Positions 1 through 40,654 of a stretch of DNA of 50,506 nt are shown here, piece after piece. This stretch comes from Methylotenera sp. (GTDB lineage Bacteria; Pseudomonadota; Gammaproteobacteria; Burkholderiales; Methylophilaceae). Where the stretch lies: the NCBI GenBank assembly GCA_023259635.1, contig JALRGX010000148.1, forward strand, positions 1 through 50,506. The letters run 5' to 3'. The notes under the pieces are model-generated. The model was not told the origin of the DNA and did not search any database. It saw only the letters and a program-made list of their open reading frames with translations. Position numbers and translations under genes: made by a program. Position 1 is the stretch's first letter, and each line of letters opens with the position of its first letter.

Positions 1-78
1 CGCAGACGCCGTAGAGATAAAATGTTTTTCTTATTTTCTTGCCTGCTTTTAGGTGTTTTAGGAAAACGTCAAAAGTGA
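1..78 (+). CDS. 3' tail of an upstream gene (partial, product unknown; possibly a membrane glycosyltransferase from context)
   Basis: Frame 1 is open from the window edge (RRRRDKMFFLFSCLLLGVLGKRQK*) and its stop overlaps a GTG start at 75, as in a coupled operon. Confidence 0.35.
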   Translation, partial: RRRRRDKMFFLFSCLLLGVLGKRQK

Positions 79-1040
79 ATAGATCCAAGATTTTAATTAC
101 AGGTGCAAATGGATTTGTCGGGCGTTATTTAACGCATCATCTAGCTAATGACGGATTATCAATCAGTTGCGTCATTCGTTCAAAGGTAACACTTGATAAT
201 AAGGTAGATAAAAAAATTATTTTACCTTCGATTGATGGCAGTACTGATTGGGTTGATGCATTAACTGGGTGTGGCTTGGTAATCCATCTTGCTGCTCGCG
301 TACATGTGATGAATGATAGTACTTTAGACCCACTAGCCGAATTTAGAAAAATTAATGTAGAAGGAACTCTTAACCTTGCCCAGCAAGCCGCAAAGGCTGG
401 AATAAAGCGTTTTATTTTTATAAGTTCGATTAAGGTGAATGGTGAAGAAACAGAATATGATCAACCATTTACTGAAGAGCATGCAGTAAACCCGCAAGAT
501 GCTTACGGCCAATCAAAATATGAAGCTGAGCAGGGCCTTATGTTAATTGCAAGGCAAACCGGTATGGAAGTAGTGATTATCAGGCCACCTCTGATATATG
601 GTGCTGGGGTAAAAGCAAATTTTGCAAGCATGCTTAACTACATTAAGCGAGGTGTTCCTTTGCCGCTGGGTGCCATTCATAATAAGCGCAGCTTTGTGTA
701 TTTGGGTAATCTGGTAAGCTTGATCAAGTGCTGTATTGATCATCCGGCAGCGGCGAATCAAGTGTTTCTGGTTTCTGATGGGCATGATCTATCTACTACC
801 GAATTATTGCGTAACTGTGCGCTGGCATTAGGGGTAAAGGCAAGATTACTTCCAGTTCCACAAAGACTGATTGAGATGGGTGCCGCTTTGTTAGGCAGGC
901 GAGCTGTAGCGCAGCGATTATGTGGAAATTTACAGGTGGATATTACCAAGGCGCGTACAATGCTTGGTTGGACGCCACCAGTTTCAGTTGCAGATGGATT
1001 GAAGTTAACTGCTCTTGGTTTGATAGAGATGAATAAGTAA
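75..1040 (+). CDS. NAD-dependent epimerase/dehydratase (SDR, UDP-sugar epimerase-like)
   Basis: ILITGANGFVGRYL Rossmann motif and YGQSKYEAE (YxxxK) catalytic motif; ORF track begins at 39 (TTG) but GTG 75 is the more likely start. Confidence 0.85.
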   Translation: MNRSKILITGANGFVGRYLTHHLANDGLSISCVIRSKVTLDNKVDKKIILPSIDGSTDWVDALTGCGLVIHLAARVHVMNDSTLDPLAEFRKINVEGTLNLAQQAAKAGIKRFIFISSIKVNGEETEYDQPFTEEHAVNPQDAYGQSKYEAEQGLMLIARQTGMEVVIIRPPLIYGAGVKANFASMLNYIKRGVPLPLGAIHNKRSFVYLGNLVSLIKCCIDHPAAANQVFLVSDGHDLSTTELLRNCALALGVKARLLPVPQRLIEMGAALLGRRAVAQRLCGNLQVDITKARTMLGWTPPVSVADGLKLTALGLIEMNK

Positions 1041-1600
1041 TGAAGCGCTTTTTTGATTTATGTTTGTCGCTATTTCTATTTCTATTTTTGTTGGTGCCGA
1101 TACTACTTGTGGCGCTGATGGTGCGCATTACTTCAGACGGCCCCGTGATTTACTGGTCTGACCGGGTAGGGCGCAATAATAAAATTTTTAGAATGCCAAA
1201 GTTTCGCACGATGCGGGCCGATACTCCGGCAGTAGCAACACATTTATTGGCTAATCCTGATCAGTTTTTAACGCCTATAGGGTCTTTTTTACGTAAATCA
1301 AGTTTGGATGAATTGCCGCAATTATGGAGTATTGTGCATGGAGATATGAGTTTTGTAGGCCCGCGTCCTGCGCTGTTTAATCAGGGTGACCTGATTGCAC
1401 TTAGAACGCAGTATGGCGTACATAAGGTGATGCCTGGTTTAACAGGGTGGGCCCAGATTAATGGACGTGATGAATTGCCGATACCGGAAAAAGTTAAGCT
1501 GGAAGTGGAATATATGCAACAGCAGTCTTTTTTGATGGATATTAAAATTATTTTTCTCACTTTTGTAAAGGTTTTGAGAAGAGAAGGCATACAGCATTAG
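1040..1600 (+). CDS. Bacterial sugar transferase (undecaprenyl-phosphate phosphosugar transferase, PglC/WcaJ C-terminal type)
   Basis: N-terminal hydrophobic segment, KFRTMRADT, SSLDELPQLWSIVHGDMSFVGPRPAL, PGLTGWAQINGRDE motifs. Confidence 0.93.
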   Translation: MKRFFDLCLSLFLFLFLLVPILLVALMVRITSDGPVIYWSDRVGRNNKIFRMPKFRTMRADTPAVATHLLANPDQFLTPIGSFLRKSSLDELPQLWSIVHGDMSFVGPRPALFNQGDLIALRTQYGVHKVMPGLTGWAQINGRDELPIPEKVKLEVEYMQQQSFLMDIKIIFLTFVKVLRREGIQH

Positions 1601-1643
1601 AATGGATAGGTAATTAAGGTTAATCTGAATATAAAAAATTATA

Positions 1644-3545
1644 ATGAATAAAATACCGATTAATATTCGCGCATTTATTGCATTGCTGCATGATGTCATC
1701 GTAGCAATCATTGCGTGGTTTGGCGCTTATCTGCTACGTTTTAATTTTGAAATTCCTGCTGAATTTACGTTCAGTATGATGGATTCGGTAATATGGGTAG
1801 TGACTTTACAAGTTTTTGTATTTGTTAGCTTTGGACTTTATCGTGGCGTATGGCGATTTGCGAGTGTTTCCGATCTTAAGCGTATTTTTCTCGCAATTAC
1901 GTCGGCAACAGCCCTGATTATTGTCGGGTTATTCATGATGCAAGCTAACATTGTGATTCCACGTTCGGTAATTATTCTGGATCCGTTACTGCTGATTTTA
2001 ATGATGGGAGGTAGCCGTTTCGCTTACCGCGCTTGGAAAGAGTATCGGTATTACGGTATTACCCTGAAGCAAGGTAGCCCAGTGGTTGTTTTGGGTGCAG
2101 GTGAGGCTGCAGTTGCTTTGGTTAAAGATTTGACGCGAAGTCCACAATGGCGCGTTGTAGGGCTTTTAGATGATGATAGGAGCGTGCTTGGCCGTGAGGT
2201 TTTCGGTGTAAGGGTGTGCGGTGCAATTAATGACTTGAGCGCAGTGAGCAAGCGTTTAAATGTTAATCATGTGATTGTTGCTATGCCATCTGCACAACAT
2301 CAAAACCGCAGAATAGCAATTGAGTTGGCTAACCAACTCGGTTTAGAGGTATTGATAGTACCGGCAATCGATGATTTGATTAGCGGTAAGGTCAGTGTTT
2401 CGCAGATTCGCAAAGTAGATGTTGAGGATCTGCTTGGTCGGGATGCAGTAAGACTTGATTGTTCAGGATTACAAAAATTAATCAATCATCAGGTAGTGCT
2501 TGTAAGCGGTGCAGGTGGGTCCATTGGTTCGGAGCTTTGCCGGCAGATAGTAAAGTTCAATCCTGTAACATTAATTTGTTTGGACATCTCTGAATTTTCA
2601 CTTTATCAGCTCGAACAGGAGCTTAGTTCCAGGCAGCTACCAACCAAGCTTATATATGTAACTACAGATGTTAAGAATAAAGTTAGACTTGATAATTTAA
2701 TTGCACAGTACAAGCCTTCAGTCGTGTTTCATGCGGCAGCCTATAAGCACGTGCCGATGATGGAAAATGGTAACGTCTGGGAAGCACTGTCGAATAATGT
2801 AATAGGCACGCATACCTTAGCTCAGGCATGTAAAGAAGCCGGCGTGGCAAAGTTTGTTCTAATTTCAACAGATAAGGCGGTCAATCCTACCAATGTGATG
2901 GGGGCAAGTAAGCGCCTTGCAGAAATGGTTTGTCAGGGATTGCAGGATGATCTTACAGATGACGCAGTAGGCACGCGTTTTGTTATGGTGCGTTTCGGTA
3001 ATGTATTAGGTAGCAGTGGCAGCGTTATACCGAAATTTCGTGAGCAGATCGCTAAAGGAGGTCCGGTTACAATTACACATCCTGAGATTACGCGTTATTT
3101 CATGTCGATCCCAGAGGCAGCGCAGTTGGTGATGCAGGCTGGATTGATGGGTAAAGGGGGGGAGATTTTTGTGCTTGATATGGGGGAGCCAGTCAAGATT
3201 GCGGCATTAGCTGCGGATATGATCAGACTATCAGGTTTGCAGCAGGATGAGATCAAAATTGAATATGTAGGTTTGCGCCCGGGCGAAAAGCTCTATGAAG
3301 AGCTGCTGGCCGATGATGAGCATACAATGCCGACTCCGCATGAGAAACTCCGTATAGCAAAAGCAAGGCAGTCTGATGCAGTTTGGGTGAAAAAGCTTAT
3401 GAAATGGATAGAAGGTTCTTCTGGAGCAGATGAAAATCTTTTGAAAACGGAACTGGCAATTTGGGTAGAGGAATATAGCCCGCAAATGCAGCTAGATAGT
3501 AAGCCAATTAAATCGATTCAGCTTGAACAGATTACGCTTCATTAA
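1644..3545 (+). CDS. Polysaccharide biosynthesis nucleotide-sugar dehydratase/epimerase (WbpM/CapD/PglF-like)
   Basis: Four N-terminal TM segments, then VVLGAGEAA and VSGAGGSIGSELCRQ Rossmann folds, STDKAVNPTNVMGASKR, MVRFGNVLGSSGSVIPKF. Confidence 0.92.
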   Translation: MNKIPINIRAFIALLHDVIVAIIAWFGAYLLRFNFEIPAEFTFSMMDSVIWVVTLQVFVFVSFGLYRGVWRFASVSDLKRIFLAITSATALIIVGLFMMQANIVIPRSVIILDPLLLILMMGGSRFAYRAWKEYRYYGITLKQGSPVVVLGAGEAAVALVKDLTRSPQWRVVGLLDDDRSVLGREVFGVRVCGAINDLSAVSKRLNVNHVIVAMPSAQHQNRRIAIELANQLGLEVLIVPAIDDLISGKVSVSQIRKVDVEDLLGRDAVRLDCSGLQKLINHQVVLVSGAGGSIGSELCRQIVKFNPVTLICLDISEFSLYQLEQELSSRQLPTKLIYVTTDVKNKVRLDNLIAQYKPSVVFHAAAYKHVPMMENGNVWEALSNNVIGTHTLAQACKEAGVAKFVLISTDKAVNPTNVMGASKRLAEMVCQGLQDDLTDDAVGTRFVMVRFGNVLGSSGSVIPKFREQIAKGGPVTITHPEITRYFMSIPEAAQLVMQAGLMGKGGEIFVLDMGEPVKIAALAADMIRLSGLQQDEIKIEYVGLRPGEKLYEELLADDEHTMPTPHEKLRIAKARQSDAVWVKKLMKWIEGSSGADENLLKTELAIWVEEYSPQMQLDSKPIKSIQLEQITLH

Positions 3546-3574
3546 CAAGCGTGTTTATAAATTGAACAATATCT

Positions 3575-4129
3575 TTGGCAGACGATAAATTGAGTACACC
3601 ACAGCAAATACTAGAACAAGCAGAACTTATTCACTCCACAGAAGTAATTGCAGCTGCAATCAGTCGGCTGGGCGAGGAAATATCAAGTGTGCTGAAAAAT
3701 ACAAACCCGATAGTTTTATGTGTAGTAAGCGGCGGTATCGTTTTTTCCGGACAGTTATTAACACGGTTGGACTTCCCCCTGGAATTAGACTACGTACATG
3801 CCAGCCGTTATCATACTGCAACGGTAGGCAGCATGCTGACCTGGGAAGCATTGCCGCGACTGGATATGAACAACCGTACTATATTGCTTGTGGATGATAT
3901 TCTTGACGAAGGCATTACGTTAAAAGCTATTCAGAATAAGTGTTTTGAGTTAGGTGCAGCAAAAGTATTCTGTGCGGTACTGGTAGAAAAACTGCTCAAT
4001 CAGGCAAAGCCAATTGCTGCTGACTTTGTTGGGCTGGAAGTACCAAATCGTTACGTTTTTGGTTATGGTATGGACGCATATGGGTGGTGGCGTAATTTAC
4101 CTGCTATCTATGCCTTAAAATCAATATAG
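3575..4129 (+). CDS. Hypoxanthine-guanine phosphoribosyltransferase family protein
   Basis: PRPP motif ILLVDDILDEGITL and VVSGGIVFSGQL; TTG start in the ORF track. Confidence 0.8.
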   Translation: MADDKLSTPQQILEQAELIHSTEVIAAAISRLGEEISSVLKNTNPIVLCVVSGGIVFSGQLLTRLDFPLELDYVHASRYHTATVGSMLTWEALPRLDMNNRTILLVDDILDEGITLKAIQNKCFELGAAKVFCAVLVEKLLNQAKPIAADFVGLEVPNRYVFGYGMDAYGWWRNLPAIYALKSI

Positions 4130-4331
4130 TTCTGAATATATCATTGGCACTTTTATTATCTGGGGCCCTGTCATAAAATTGACGTAAAAGTTAATTTATG
4201 AACACTCCCATATGCTTTTTTGCGGCAATAATTTATGTAAATTATTGTTAATAATGTGCTTTTAGTTCTGGCCTCTCTTTTGCGTACGCTAATTCAATAT
4301 GCTTTCATGCCTATCGAGTGGAGGATCAAAT

Positions 4332-5102
4332 ATGGAGATAGAAGTTAAAAGTTACTATCTGGATAAATTGTTTTCAACTATCCAGTGTTCCAAACAAATA
4401 AAAAAACATATCGATTTTTTTGCTTGGATGCAGAATTCTGTTTCAGAATTTATTCCGCACGACGCACTCCTGGCAGTTTGGGGGAACTTTAAGGATGGCG
4501 CAGATAATGCAAAGCTTCAGTATGATGTAGCTTCCAATGTAGATGGATTTAATACCAAGGCAATGATGGGAGCCTCTAAAGAGGTAAATCAGTGTTTGGC
4601 TTATCTATATGAGCTATGGCTGGATAATAACCGTCATTTCTTTGTGCTCAACAGTTTTGGGACAAGCGAGTTTGATTGCAAGTTCCGGATGATATTCCCT
4701 GATTTACCACAAGAACTTAATTCATTGCTAGTGTATGGAATAAGTGACCTGCGTGGCGGCAATGATTGTCTGTATGTATTTTTTAGTAAATATAATAAGT
4801 TTCAGACTAAAAGTTCAGTAATGGATTTCATAATGCCGCACATTGATCATTCACTAAGAAAAATACAACATCTGGGGCCAATTAAAACTCTATCTAAAAT
4901 AAGATTGTCGTTAAACATGTCATGTTTGACTGAGAGAGAGTTGGAAGTGATTGAATGGATCAAGGCGGGTAAAACCAATCAGGAAGCTGCGATAATTTTA
5001 AGCATCACTCAAAACACAGTAAAAAGTCATCTCAAAAGAATTTATCAAAAATTAAATGTGACTAAGCGTGCGCAGGCTGTGGCGCTCTTAGCCAAACATT
5101 AA
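4332..5102 (+). CDS. epsA: LuxR-family transcriptional regulator, EpsA-like (XrtB/PEP-CTERM-associated type)
   Basis: C-terminal LuxR HTH LTERELEVIEWIKAGKTNQEAAIILSITQNTVKSHLKRIYQKL; RBS gagtggagg before ATG 4332; adjacent to EPS genes, resembling the EpsA regulators of methylotrophs. Confidence 0.65.
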   Translation: MEIEVKSYYLDKLFSTIQCSKQIKKHIDFFAWMQNSVSEFIPHDALLAVWGNFKDGADNAKLQYDVASNVDGFNTKAMMGASKEVNQCLAYLYELWLDNNRHFFVLNSFGTSEFDCKFRMIFPDLPQELNSLLVYGISDLRGGNDCLYVFFSKYNKFQTKSSVMDFIMPHIDHSLRKIQHLGPIKTLSKIRLSLNMSCLTERELEVIEWIKAGKTNQEAAIILSITQNTVKSHLKRIYQKLNVTKRAQAVALLAKH

Positions 5103-5366
5103 TCTACATGTTATTTTAGACCAGACAGAAAATATTGGTATTAACGAAATTCAGTCTTTCCTGAATATTTCTATTGCAAACGGCCATTTGTACGAATATT
5201 TTTTAACCTTAAATCCTATCAATGGCTTTCGGTGACTTTTAAAAAGTTGCCGTCTGCTTTTCGTAGTACAATGAGTCTCGTTCTGAGAAATGCCCACTAA
5301 AGAGAATGTTCAGTAACTTTAAACGGGGTTTTTGACTGTTTGAATTTTTGATGGAACTCAATTTGA

Positions 5367-5451
5367 TGGTGCCCAAAAGAGGACTCGAACCTCCACATCT
5401 TTCGATACTAGTACCTGAAACTAGCGCGTCTACCAATTCCGCCATCTGGGC
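5367..5451 (-). tRNA. tRNA-Leu (anticodon CAG), CCA encoded
   Basis: GCCCAGATGGCGGAATTGGTAGACGCG...CTAGTTTCAGGTACTAG...GGTTCGAGTCCTCTTTTGGGCACCA folds as a class II tRNA. Confidence 0.96.
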
Positions 5452-5518
5452 TTTTTTCTGCGAAATAACTATACTGCAGCAAAGAGACGCAATTTTATAT
5501 TAAAGGCAGGCTTTGTCA

Positions 5519-7969
5519 ATGACAAAACACAAAAATAAAAGTAAAAGAAGAAATAATGATCCTCATGCAGCTCGTGAAGCAAGCCGTTATGAAACGCCGC
5601 TGCCGAGCCGCGAATTTATTCTAGCCACAATGACAGAACAAGGGGTTCCGCTAAGCGTAGAGCAGCTTTATATATTGCTGGATATCAGTGACAACGAGCG
5701 TGAAATATTCAACCGACGCCTTGGTGCAATGGAGCGCGAAGGCCAGATCATGCGGAACAGGAAAGGTGCCCTCTGCATTACCGATAAGCTGGATTTAATA
5801 GCAGGTGTGGTACAGGGGCACCCGGATGGATTCGGCTTCCTGATTCCTGATGACAAAACCAAGACCAATGGTGAGGATTTATTCTTAAGCCCTAAGGAAA
5901 TGTCTCAGGTGATGCATGGCGACCGCGCCATGGTGCGCATGAGCGGCTTGGATAGAAGAGGGCGGCCGGAAGGTAAAATCGTTGAGGTGCTGGAGCGCCG
6001 CACCCAAAGACTGGTGGGACGTGTGATTCAATCCAGCGGTGTGACAATTGTTGCAGCAGAAGACAAACGTATTAACCAGGATGTTTTGATTCCATACCAT
6101 CTGGATATGGGAGCAAAATCAGGCCAGGTGGTGATGGTGGAATTAACTGAGCAGCCATCAGCTCACGCGCAGCCAATGGGGAAAATCACCGAGATTTTAG
6201 GCAATTATGCAGATAGCGGCATGGAGATTGAAATTGCTTTACGCAAACATAATCTGCCGCATCAGTTCAGCGCTGATGCGATAAAACTGGCTGAATCCTA
6301 TCCCAAGCTGGTACGTGAGGATGATTTTAAAGGACGGATAGATAGCCGTGAAATGCCGCTGATCACGATTGACGGAGAAACAGCGCGTGATTTTGATGAT
6401 GCTGTATATGCGGAGCCCCAGGGTAAGGGCTGGCGTCTGGTTGTGGCAATTGCTGATGTGAGTTTTTACGTAAAACCAAAAGACGCTCTGGATAAAGAAG
6501 CTTATGACCGTGGTAATTCAGTCTATTTTCCACGCCGTGTAATACCAATGCTGCCAGAGGCTTTATCGAATGGGTTATGCTCGCTGAACCCTGATGTTGA
6601 GCGTTTATGCATGATTTGCGACATGCAGATCGATGGCCATGGCATCGTCAAGCAATACAAGTTTTACCCCTCGGTCATGCGCTCTAAAGCGCGTATGACA
6701 TACAGCAAAGTCTATGACATTCTGCAAAATCCTGAGGGTGAACTGGCTAAAGAATATGAATGGCTGAACCCGCATTTACAGAACTTGTACAGTGTTTATC
6801 AGTTGCTGATCAAGCAACGTGAAAAACGTGGTGCCATTGAGTTTGAATCATCAGAAACGATCATGCTGTTCAATGAAGACGGCAAGATTGAACGCATTGA
6901 ACCAAGTTTGCGTAATGAAGCACATCGACTGATTGAAGAGTGCATGCTTGCCGCCAACGTTTGTGCGTCAGAATTCCTGAAAAAACATGAGCATCCGGCC
7001 TTGTATCGCATCCATGAAGGGCCAACGCCAGAGAAACTCGAACTTTTACGTACATTCATGGCTGAATTTGGCTTTGGCGTAGGCGGTGGCGATTCTCCAC
7101 AGGCCAAAGATTATTGCAAGCTGCTTGATCTTATTAAAGACCGCCCCGACGCCCAGTTGCTGCAAACCGTATTGTTGCGCTCCATGCAGCAGGCAGTCTA
7201 TAGCCCGGATAACGTAGGGCACTTTGGTCTGGCATATGAGGCATACGCACACTTTACCTCCCCGATACGGCGTTATCCTGATTTGCTGATACATCGGGCG
7301 ATCAAGGCTGTATTGAATGGCGATAAATACAAAGCGGGTGATTGGAATGAATTGGGCATCCATTGCTCAATGACCGAGCGTCGTGCCGATGATGCAACCC
7401 GCGATGTCACCAATTGGCTGAAATGCTTTTATATGCAGGATCGTATCGGTGAAGTGTTTGAAGGTACGGTTGCCGGCGTTACCAGCTTTGGTTTGTTCGT
7501 TGCATTGGATGGCGTATATGTTGAGGGATTGCTGCACGTAACCGAGCTTGGCAATGATTATTTCCACTATGACAAAGCTCGCCATGAAATGGCGGGGGAG
7601 CGCACTGGTGTGCGCTACCGTTTAGGTGACCGCTTAACGGTAAAATTGGTGCGTGTTGATTTGGAAACCACAAAAATTGATTTCACTTTAGTGAATAAAA
7701 CCAATGAGTTGGAAGTTAATCGTAATGTTGAATCTGCAAAAGGTGTTGCACAAGTTAAAACAAGCGTTAAAAGCAAAACTGCGGTAAAATCCACGCCTAA
7801 ATTTGAAAGCAGTAGATCTGAACTGGCATTGGGTGCCAAGCCGGCACGTAGGTCAACTAAACGCCCTGTAGCTGCAGGTAATACTTCAACAAAACCCAAG
7901 TCTGATAATAATTCTATTAAATCTAAAAAAGTGATTAAAAAAACCACTAAACGTAAGGTGAGAAAATGA
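5519..7969 (+). CDS. rnr: Ribonuclease R
   Basis: RNB motif [40 protein letters not shown]-terminal S1 domain and Lys-rich tail; ATG 5519 preferred over TTG 5513. Confidence 0.96.
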
Positions 7970-38197: not shown

Positions 38198-38719
38198 ATG
38201 AAGGCAAATAAATTAACGCAAGCAGCAACAAGCCTATATTGCAGAATTATCGCGCAATTGAACAATATGGCCGATTTTATTCCACCGTTATTCTTACGCT
38301 TAATCCTGGCTATTGAGTTTGGTGAATCAGGAGTTGAAAAGCTTCATGGCAGCAACTGGTTTAATGAAATAGCATTTCCATTTCCATTTAACCTGTTACC
38401 GCCAGATGTTAGCTGGCATATCGCAACTTATTTTGAAATCTTTGGTGCAATCGCTTTATTGCTGGGCATTGCTACAAGGTTTTTTTCAATTTCTCTCGTA
38501 ATACTTACTATCGTTGCAATTCTTTCTGTACATTGGCCAGCTGAAATAACAAGCTTCAATGATTTAATCAGTGGTTACCGTATTATTGATGAAGAAGGTG
38601 ATGGACTAGGTAATTACAAGCTGCCGTTACTTTTTATAATAATGTTTTTACCTTTAATATTTAAAGGTGCTGGAAAACTCAGCTTTGATTACTTTTTAAC
38701 CTGCAAAGTTAAATCATAA
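38198..38719 (+). CDS. DoxX family membrane protein
   Basis: LRLILAIEFGESGVEKLHGSNWF, four TM segments. Confidence 0.85.
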   Translation: MKANKLTQAATSLYCRIIAQLNNMADFIPPLFLRLILAIEFGESGVEKLHGSNWFNEIAFPFPFNLLPPDVSWHIATYFEIFGAIALLLGIATRFFSISLVILTIVAILSVHWPAEITSFNDLISGYRIIDEEGDGLGNYKLPLLFIIMFLPLIFKGAGKLSFDYFLTCKVKS

Positions 38720-38932: not shown

Positions 38933-38960
38933 ATTTTACATAATATACATTATACGAAAT
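38933..38960. other. Chromosomal dif site (XerC/XerD recombination site)
   Basis: ATTTTACATAA-TATACA-TTATACGAAAT; 23/28 identical to reverse-complemented E. coli dif (ATTTAACATAA-TATACA-TTATGCGCACC), with the central 6 bp identical. Confidence 0.88.
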
Positions 38961-39031
38961 AAGCATTATTATTTTGCGGAATAGTTATTCATTTTCACTT
39001 CTGCTTTTGGACAACTCCAAAAGGACTAAAA

Positions 39032-39268
39032 ATGAAAGAATTTCCGCACAATGTTTTTAATGTTCAGCTCACCCGTTCACAATTAGAGCTGCTTTCTAAA
39101 ATGCTAGACCAAGAAATTGCCACTCTTGAGTCTGGGTATGCACACCCACACCCACAAATTCTTAAAAAGACTGCCCGCGTGATTTGGGAACAACTGCAAC
39201 CTTCACCAGCAGAAAAGCAAAAACGCTTTGCTTCTTGGGTTAATAACTTGGGTTTGGCATCATGTTAA
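39032..39268 (+). CDS. Small hypothetical protein of the IMEX (78 aa)
   Basis: RBS aaaagga before ATG; stop overlaps the next ORF start (39262). Confidence 0.65.
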   Translation: MKEFPHNVFNVQLTRSQLELLSKMLDQEIATLESGYAHPHPQILKKTARVIWEQLQPSPAEKQKRFASWVNNLGLASC

Positions 39269-39462
39269 TCGACCATTCAAAACCCATTAGAACCGAACCC
39301 GTAAGCCTTCGTCGTTTTGCAGAGCTTACGGGCTTATCCCTTGATTTACTGCGCACATACTGCCTGCAAGGCCGTATTTTAGGCGCTCGCAAGCATGTAT
39401 TGACTAAGCAATGGTGGATTTACCCGCCCGCCAAGATTGTGCCTAGTCAAAAGCGCTGGTGA
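39262..39462 (+). CDS. Small excisionase/MerR-like wHTH protein (66 aa)
   Basis: VSLRRFAELTGLSLDLLRTYCLQGRILGARKHVLTKQWWIYP resembles the HTH_17/Xis fold. Confidence 0.65.
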   Translation: MLIDHSKPIRTEPVSLRRFAELTGLSLDLLRTYCLQGRILGARKHVLTKQWWIYPPAKIVPSQKRW

Positions 39463-39887
39463 AGCGGAAAAAGTACAAACGCAAGCCATATAAGCCAATA
39501 GATAAAGACCAGTTTATGGAAATCAGGAAAATTAACCGAATGAGTATTGAGCAGGTCGCCAAGCTGTTACAGGTGACCAGTAGAACGATAGCGCATTGGG
39601 AAAGCGGCGTTACCCGCATTCCCTATTCCGCTTTTAAGCTGCTGCGCTGCCTTGCCAATGGTGAATTGCTGCCTGATGTCTGGAAAGGTTGGACTATCAA
39701 AGGAGACACCCTTTGGTCGCCCGTGGGTAGACCGTTCCGGCAACATGAGCTTACGTATTTATCACATTACTTCACTATGGCTCGCTATTGGCAAGCGGAT
39801 TATGAACGCCGAAATGCCACAAGGCAAGGGGCTCAATCGCCCACTGCCCGCCCCTTGTTACGGGTCTTGAAAGGGGGCAAGGCATGA
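39459..39887 (+). CDS. VC1465-family Xer recombination activation factor (XafT-like, DUF3653-type)
   Basis: HTH MSIEQVAKLLQVTSRTIAHWESGVTRIPYSAFKLLRCLANGELLPDVWKGWTIKGDTLWSPVGRPF; GTG start overlaps the preceding stop. Confidence 0.78.
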   Translation: MKRKKYKRKPYKPIDKDQFMEIRKINRMSIEQVAKLLQVTSRTIAHWESGVTRIPYSAFKLLRCLANGELLPDVWKGWTIKGDTLWSPVGRPFRQHELTYLSHYFTMARYWQADYERRNATRQGAQSPTARPLLRVLKGGKA

Positions 39888-40249
39888 ATGCGCCAATGTT
39901 TAAAGGGCTTTTAGCGCCGTATGGGGGCATGACCCCATATAGACAGCGACAAAGCGCATTTATACGGCGTCTATCGCGTGCGGTTAAGGGTAGCGGTTTG
40001 CTTCAGGCCATTGCGCGCCCTGTAGACGGTTTTAAAGGGGTTATAACCAGACAGAGCGCGTGTGAAGCGCGGCAGCGCGTCGGCAGCGTGATGGATGGTT
40101 ATTTGTTGTTAGATAACCTGGCGTATTCCCCTATTTCTCGTCTGCTTCGCTTCTTAATAATAAGCGAAGTTTCGGCAACGGGTTGCCTTATTTGCAGGCC
40201 GTTAAATAGACCTGTAAGCCTTACGCTTACAGGCTTTGGGGGTTTTTAA
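39884..40249 (+). CDS. Hypothetical protein, possibly only partly real (121 aa)
   Basis: ATGA coupling with the upstream gene, but its 3' third coincides with three hairpins. Confidence 0.4.
   Translation: MNAPMFKGLLAPYGGMTPYRQRQSAFIRRLSRAVKGSGLLQAIARPVDGFKGVITRQSACEARQRVGSVMDGYLLLDNLAYSPISRLLRFLIISEVSATGCLICRPLNRPVSLTLTGFGGF
40145..40233. other. Cluster of three adjacent hairpins (possible ssDNA replication/packaging region)
   Basis: CTTCGCTT(40145-40152)/AAGCGAAG(40162-40169); GGCAA(40174-40178)/TTGCC(40183-40187); CCTGTAAGC(40211-40219)/GCTTACAGG(40225-40233). Confidence 0.6.
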
Positions 40250-40250
40250 C

Positions 40251-40559
40251 ATGATAAAAAACTGTTCCGTCTCAAAATTGCAGGTTTTTAGTGCGCCGGC
40301 TGGTTACATTGAAGCGGTTTCTGTGGCGTATGCTGCCGCCAAAATGTACGTTTCTGAAAGGCGTATCCGGCAAATGCTGGCTACTGGCGTGTTAAGCGGC
40401 ACCAAGCAGTCAAGGGCTTGGCGTATTGATTATCCGTTCAGGGTGCGTCTTGGCACTCGTGGCCCTGCTTCTCAATACTTTAAAGACCGTTCTGTCGTAC
40501 CTAAAAAACGCTGGAATAGTTCGCCCTTTCCTAATCAGAAAATAAAAAAGGGAGTATGA
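40251..40559 (+). CDS. Small HTH_17/excisionase-like DNA-binding protein (about 102 aa)
   Basis: VAYAAAKMYVSERRIRQMLATGVLSGTKQSRAWRIDYP; ATG 40251 preferred over TTG 40236. Confidence 0.6.
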   Translation: MIKNCSVSKLQVFSAPAGYIEAVSVAYAAAKMYVSERRIRQMLATGVLSGTKQSRAWRIDYPFRVRLGTRGPASQYFKDRSVVPKKRWNSSPFPNQKIKKGV

Positions 40560-40626
40560 AAATCTTTCTTTGGCTGATATCCAATGTAGATAATTTAAAA
40601 ATTTAGCTCCAAAAGTAGACAGTTGA

Positions 40627-40654
40627 ATTTGTACAACTATACATTACACGAAGT
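40627..40654. other. Degenerate dif-like attachment site, right end of the IMEX
   Basis: ATTTGTACAAC-TATACA-TTACACGAAGT; 20/28 identical to the left dif: XerC arm 9/11, centre 6/6, XerD arm 5/11. Confidence 0.75.

Follow-up and report, generated by a model that had tools for sequence, protein, structure and literature searches.

The dif-like sequence at positions 40627-40654 of the window (the whole 50,506-nucleotide stretch analysed here, one contig of a 2.2-Mb draft genome of Methylotenera sp., whose relatives are betaproteobacterial methylotrophs) is, judged from its sequence, the far-end junction of a mobile element and not a decayed dif. It looks half-broken because a XerC arm of the host is joined there to the element's own XerD arm. 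The earlier note on this DNA had described the XerD arm as lost from a dif, and this description was wrong: that half-site came with the incoming element. The site is very probably an att junction of an IMEX of the TLC-phi type, and the element is probably a minimal satellite of filamentous phages.

The paired sites and the element between them

The right-end site and the intact dif at the left end were read directly on the minus strand, where they have the same orientation and lie 1,694 bp apart:

40627..40654, minus strand: hybrid right-end site, ACTTCGTGTAA TGTATA GTTGTACAAAT
40644-40654, minus strand: XerC arm of the hybrid, ACTTCGTGTAA, host-derived
40638-40643, minus strand: centre of the hybrid, TGTATA
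40627-40637, minus strand: XerD arm of the hybrid, GTTGTACAAAT, non-consensus and element-derived
38933..38960, minus strand: intact left-end dif, ATTTCGTATAA TGTATA TTATGTAAAAT
38950-38960, minus strand: XerC arm of the left dif, ATTTCGTATAA, element-derived after integration
38944-38949, minus strand: centre of the left dif, TGTATA
38933-38943, minus strand: XerD arm of the left dif, TTATGTAAAAT, host-derived

A direct recount of the right site against the left dif gave the matches stated in the earlier note, that is, 9/11 in the XerC arm, 6/6 in the centre and 5/11 in the XerD arm. The last value is near random, being equalled by 20% of random 11-mers of the window. With up to three mismatches, the 17-bp XerC arm plus centre occurs in only two places in the window, which are the two sites, whereas 100 dinucleotide shuffles of the window yielded a mean of 0.13 matches and never two. 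A base-composition model predicts 0.017 occurrences of at least 15/17 matches per window and 3e-4 per 2 kb (one strand). That the right site resembles dif by chance and is unrelated to the left one would suit an XerD arm no better than random, but the probability of this is negligible in view of the shuffles, of a paired layout that recurs in about ten genomes and of the similarity between elements, which ends at the site; homologous elements sharing the layout already refute it, and the argument against chance similarity made in the earlier note holds. The palindrome TTGTACAA to which the same note drew attention in the hybrid XerD arm is absent from related elements; it was given no weight and was ruled out as a functional feature.

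The left site is very probably a working dif because it is the sole dif-like site in the draft genome at up to three mismatches and lies at the GC-skew sign change, the cumulative skew of the window peaking at about 40-42 kb, adjoining it. A consensus dif is common to nearly all members of the genus; it is intact in 34/37 of them, window included, and the partner site is absent in most. The genome of the window has an FtsK gamma domain and a single scored recombinase of the XerC/D type, labelled no more precisely than that because its 297.8 bits fall under the NCBI cut-off for XerD (329.6). Beside dif, a host gene (38198-38719) encodes a DoxX-type protein above the NCBI cut-off for HvfX, a copper-binding RiPP maturation protein.

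The element and its parts are as follows:

38944..40643, plus strand: integrated mobile element of about 1.69 kb, crossover inside the centre; alignments start and end at both sites
38977..38985, plus strand: CGGAATAGT motif, separated from the XerC arm by exactly 16 bp on the element side
39032..39268, plus strand: ORF1, 78 aa, conserved in related elements (dN/dS 0.17-0.41)
39262..39462, plus strand: ORF2, 66 aa, Cox-like excisionase/repressor HTH protein (phrog_575, E 4.8e-6), conserved
39459..39887, plus strand: xafT-like gene, 142 aa (HTH_3 and DUF3653; NF040522)
39898..40086, plus strand: non-coding region common to filamentous phages (nhmmer; folding z -1.8 to -3.6)
39920-39939, plus strand: stem-loop TATGGGG-GCATGA-CCCCATA, then TAGAC, inside the phage-shared region
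40014-40027, plus strand: CGCGCCCTGTAGAC, inside the phage-shared region
40251..40559, plus strand: ORF5, 102 aa, HTH/excisionase-like (phrog_1840, E 0.0035)
40261-40269, minus strand: CGGAACAGT, inverted second copy of the motif, at the start of the last gene

What marks the element as an IMEX is its location at dif, the direct dif-like sites at both ends and the lack of an integrase of its own, none having been found among its ORFs in Pfam, PHROG and NCBIfam searches. In addition, relatives have empty sites, and in a homologous element the boundary falls exactly at the Xer core (G013/G028, see below). The boundaries of the window element itself come solely from element-element comparison, in which the similarity to the G024 element stops at the end of the hybrid XerC arm. 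As a circle, the element is predicted to carry the attP ATTTGTACAAC TATACA TTATACGAAAT (plus-strand order, XerD side first). ORF1 had no match in Pfam, PHROG or NCBIfam, and the homologue of ORF5 in L188 matches HTH_17 (E 1.6e-5). An ORF at 39884-40249 was rejected as a gene, since it covers the conserved non-coding region and is probably spurious. The 16-bp spacing of the CGGAAYAGT motif is identical in G024, both G007 elements, L134, L135, L137 and L188, and the motif is perhaps an operator or accessory site for an HTH protein of the element. It also recurs elsewhere within each element (window, L131, L132, L134, L135, L137, L188), frequently as an inverted copy where the last gene starts.

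The earlier note had remarked on a XafT-like gene accompanying an XerD-poor att site, and the protein searches bear this out. The 142-aa protein reached 84.3 bits against the NCBIfam model NF040522, 'VC1465 family Xer recombination activation factor' (cut-off 70), and matched DUF3653 (E 1.1e-8) and HTH_3 in Pfam; all six members of the XafT alignment match NF040522. By these matches, it belongs to the XafT / VC1465 family. Among close homologues, the dN/dS of xafT is 0.04-0.19 and the gene is therefore maintained by purifying selection. A tblastn search with the protein gave no match in phage records and two weak Vibrio matches in plasmids, and a search of solved structures returned HTH matches only, such as the HigA antitoxin.

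Related elements, Zot phages and a shared non-coding region

Thirteen XafT elements were found in Beta- and Gammaproteobacteria, mostly in Methylotenera, Luteimonas being the gammaproteobacterial case. The paired layout of the window recurs, with a spacing of 1.2-2.7 kb, in G024, in G028, in the two tandem elements of G007 and in L135, L137, L140, L141 and L142; hybrid ends are also present in L130 (from M. mobilis 13), L133 and L138. Partner sites were located by a scan keyed on the XerC arm and centre, which left the XerD arm unconstrained. Consistent degeneracy of the XerD arm at the right ends of homologous elements, a check proposed in the earlier note, was found on alignment in 13/13, the XerC arm and centre being kept. 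The XerD arms match dif at 2-7/11 positions, with a mean of 4.3 over the 12 distinct arms compared with 3.2 for random 11-mers. Positions 1, 2 and 4 match almost never, positions 9 and 11 match in 9/12 arms, and position 1 is G in 11/12 distinct arms; the binomial value, 6e-7, makes this look stronger than it is, the elements being related. XerD-arm loss in XafT elements is thus patterned. In G024, G007, G028 and others, the hybrid is without exception in direct orientation to the intact dif and on its XerC side, as it would be if each new copy went into the rebuilt dif.

The cleanest proof of insertion at the Xer core, at the level of sequence comparison, is a pair of near-identical genomes, G013 with an empty site and G028 with an occupied one, where 2.7 kb are inserted between flanks 95-97% identical and the homology of the right flank restarts at the first base of the centre. 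For the window, no empty-site relative with both of its own flanks was found among the relatives compared. Its left flank is collinear with several of them up to near dif; the right flank (nitrate/formate-type oxidoreductase) sits elsewhere in those relatives, and this is why a clean empty-site pair is lacking.

Several related loci deserve a description of their own. Two XafT elements with differing XerD arms lie in tandem at one dif in L068 (G007):5857-9325, an arrangement that suggests serial integration at a rebuilt dif. The element in L063 (G028):6744-9487 carries a cargo ORF of 332 aa, encoded on the opposite strand, the one in L145:4585-5973 is broken by a 462-aa transposase-like ORF, and a Rhodoferax locus (L147) shows a similar pair of sites with a different core. 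Sites of the sequence TATTTAGCGGAATAGCTATA in several genomes were considered as distant left-end copies and rejected; they are a dispersed intergenic repeat in G007, G021 and G024 (L119-L124), often after GGAATGACGGGT, that appears unrelated to the element.

The reading of the site as TLC-phi-like gained from a comparison with Zot phages that have no XafT, all ten of which show att types other than that of the XafT elements. L195, L196, L197 and L200 keep the XerD arm and centre and have no XerC arm, whereas L198, L199, L201, L202, L203 and L171 have the XerC arm and only the first two bases of the centre. The XerD-poor architecture therefore tracks with XafT, in 13/13 elements against 0/10 phages (Fisher p ~9e-7; p = 0.002 when collapsed to rough lineages, whose numbers are estimated and not tree-based). 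At L195:27, L196:3655, L197:92 and L200:153, a perfect XerD arm and centre stand beside a degenerate XerC arm, the mirror of the TLC type, and we know of no described class of this kind.

A replication gene was looked for in every ORF of the window element, and no Rep-family match was obtained in Pfam, PHROG or NCBIfam; a cri-like replication gene, as TLC-phi has, was thus not recognised in it. In related elements, whose ORFs were read by eye and not scanned individually, no Rep-like ORF was recognised. What is found instead 3' of xafT in the subgroup of the window is a hairpin, ATGGGG...CCCCAT, with TRTAGAC behind it and CGCGCCCTGTAGAC some 80 bp further along. An nhmmer profile of this region, built from seven satellites, picked out, in seven contigs of filamentous phages, the intergenic stretch at the Zot 3' end (E 1e-9 to 1e-13). 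Two further matches came from outside the set used for building it, L171 (E 3.5e-7), a Zot-bearing contig from a Methylotenera genome, and L137 (E 5e-6), a XafT element; after these, the next E value was 0.03. The hairpin itself was first noticed in the satellites; the phage contigs were chosen because one of them (L188/L194) had surfaced in the XafT search and not for the hairpin. A cis region common to the element and its candidate helper phages is a feature of filamentous-phage satellites; the element appears to borrow a replication or packaging signal from filamentous phages, and the shared region may serve as an origin of replication, as a packaging signal or in both roles. Taken with the absence of a recognised Rep, it makes the element look like a Rep-less, XafT-encoding satellite of the TLC type.

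One contig holds phage and satellite together. L194 (IMGVR_UViG_3300024967_000026), 1-7831, carries Zot, a G2P-type Rep and coat-like genes along with a full XafT satellite of the window's family. An Xer core stands at each end of the satellite, and the 17 bp of the terminal repeat are those of the Xer centre and XerC arm. The att on its phage side has an XerD-poor arm, GAGAGGCGTAA, although the phage part has no XafT. These features fit a phage-satellite co-integrate or an assembly artefact. In a second XafT subgroup, another att-proximal hairpin, TTTACGTGTAACTGGACACGTAAAG, is common to elements and Zot phages, with 91-96% identity over 47-48 bp (L140:5263, L141:5220, L064:13100, L060:2637, L047:5010, L201:2637-2684), and so, by alignment, is a second case of cis-sequence sharing between satellite and phage.

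A proposed TLC-phi-type mechanism and its alternatives

The structure of the site, the XafT family of the protein, the constant degeneracy of the XerD arm, the empty/occupied pair, the phage-shared region and the lack of a recognised Rep can all be read in the sequences. From them we infer recombination by XerC and XerD, its order, its dependence on XafT, protection from FtsK and the use of a helper. The mechanism of TLC-phi is the best explanation here because the att type and the activator family are the same. By this analogy, the circular element would carry a single attP, matching dif in its XerC arm and centre but not in its XerD arm. The XafT that it encodes would activate the XerD of the host and may also hold a poor synapse together, so that XerD would exchange the first strands between attP and dif independently of FtsK, as in TLC-phi, and XerC the second. 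Integration would rebuild a functional dif on one side, from the XerD arm of the host and the XerC arm of the element, and leave on the other side the hybrid of host XerC arm and element XerD arm. The poor XerD arm would keep FtsK-driven dimer resolution from excising the element, and XafT would let it move on demand. Because the element has no Rep gene, it is probably replicated and/or packaged in trans by a resident inovirus, through the copied intergenic region of the phage. In the window's own draft genome no Zot phage was found, hence no documented helper there. A more speculative extension, which is possible but doubtful, concerns the Rep-less XafT satellites of 1.2-2.7 kb as a whole: phage and satellite may split the labour, the phage giving Rep and coat by way of the shared hairpin region and the satellite giving XafT, so that a XafT-less phage with an XerD-poor attP, as in L194, could integrate at dif if accompanied by the satellite.

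The part of this reading most exposed to an alternative is the satellite. A TLC-type Xer element could have an unrecognised replication protein of its own, or live by excision and integration only, the phage-like region being a relic of ancestry. ORF1, with no known relatives, and the absence of a Zot phage from the window's genome speak for this; the phage-like region is nevertheless kept in seven satellites, outside conserved coding sequence, and a single contig (L194) joins satellite and phage, which leaves the alternative unlikely, if still to be taken seriously. It is improbable that the right site is a second dif decaying after a duplication or an old insertion, with the element being the defunct remainder of a larger TLC-like phage after loss of Rep. 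The element is indeed small and Rep-less, and remnant ends exist elsewhere (65 bp of a left end in G012, and a left end without a XafT match in G016), but elements of 1.2-2.7 kb that lack Rep and keep both ends are found in several genera, selection on xafT is purifying, G007 carries two elements in tandem, and the XerD arms differ from one another yet are all non-consensus, with the recurrent G at position 1.

Integration of the CTX or VGJ type, in which XerC makes the sole strand exchange, the XerD arm is irrelevant and the XafT-like protein is merely a repressor, would account for the HTH domain of the 142-aa protein and for the XerC-arm-only att sites of other phages of these hosts. It is nonetheless the least probable of the three, given that the centre of the window site matches at 6/6 positions against 2/6 in XerC-only elements (L198, L199, L201, L203, L171) and that the protein passes the cut-off for Xer activation factors. 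The preferred reading thus remains a TLC-phi-type IMEX that acts as a phage satellite.

Known systems and significance

In TLC-phi of Vibrio cholerae, the XerC site and centre of attP-TLC are almost identical to dif1 and the XerD site has very little similarity to it, and integration starts with XerD and does not need FtsK (PMC4246890, PMC5357621); in this the literature agrees with the earlier note's account of a TLC-phi att site without a consensus XerD site. The window presents the same combination, a XerC arm and centre near-identical to dif beside a dissimilar XerD arm, and the two elements further share a dif rebuilt on one side and a XafT-family gene, XafT being the XerD-activating factor as cited in PMC9765430. 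Dependence on other filamentous phages is a further likeness, expected for the window element. For TLC-phi, an autonomous replication module has been described (PMC4246890); in contrast, the window element measures 1.7 kb, and in place of a recognised Rep it has an intergenic region like that of phages. CTX-phi and VGJ-phi are also filamentous-phage elements that integrate at dif by the host XerC/XerD, but their homology is confined to the XerC side and they have no XafT (PMC5357621). Some of the Zot phages related to the helper candidates belong to this type. Integration of Legionella LME-1 and of the gonococcal genomic island likewise yields an intact dif plus a modified site that reduces excision, an effect shown for the modified downstream dif of LME-1 (PMC9765430). 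Both are far larger than the window element, and no XafT is reported there.

XafT-like IMEXs are reportedly widespread in Beta- and Gammaproteobacteria, and the window element is one of that set. Among satellites, RS1 carries its own replication gene. Mobilisation by a filamentous helper is a trait that the window element would share with RS1 and with a plasmid satellite (Schmid et al. 2024, cited in PMC11389934), the latter differing in being autonomous according to its title. XafT-type IMEXs as such are already known. No description was found, the primary XafT survey aside, of a 1.7-kb form that lacks Rep and has an intergenic region derived from phages, of the strict association of att architecture with XafT as opposed to XafT-less phages, or of the patterned XerD arm.

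With this comparison, what has been a model from one species (TLC-phi and XafT in Vibrio cholerae) becomes a set of data that can be compared across elements. In several genera, the presence of XafT goes with one particular att architecture, and this yields a testable rule, namely that elements bringing an XerD activator can give up the XerD arm. The methylotroph system is harmless and naturally offers elements in tandem, empty sites and phages that are candidate helpers, so that integration, escape from FtsK and the dependence of a satellite on its helper could be studied there, outside a pathogen. If the reading as a Rep-less satellite is true, these elements would be among the smallest integrating phage satellites, and the two shared sequence blocks would name the helper signal.
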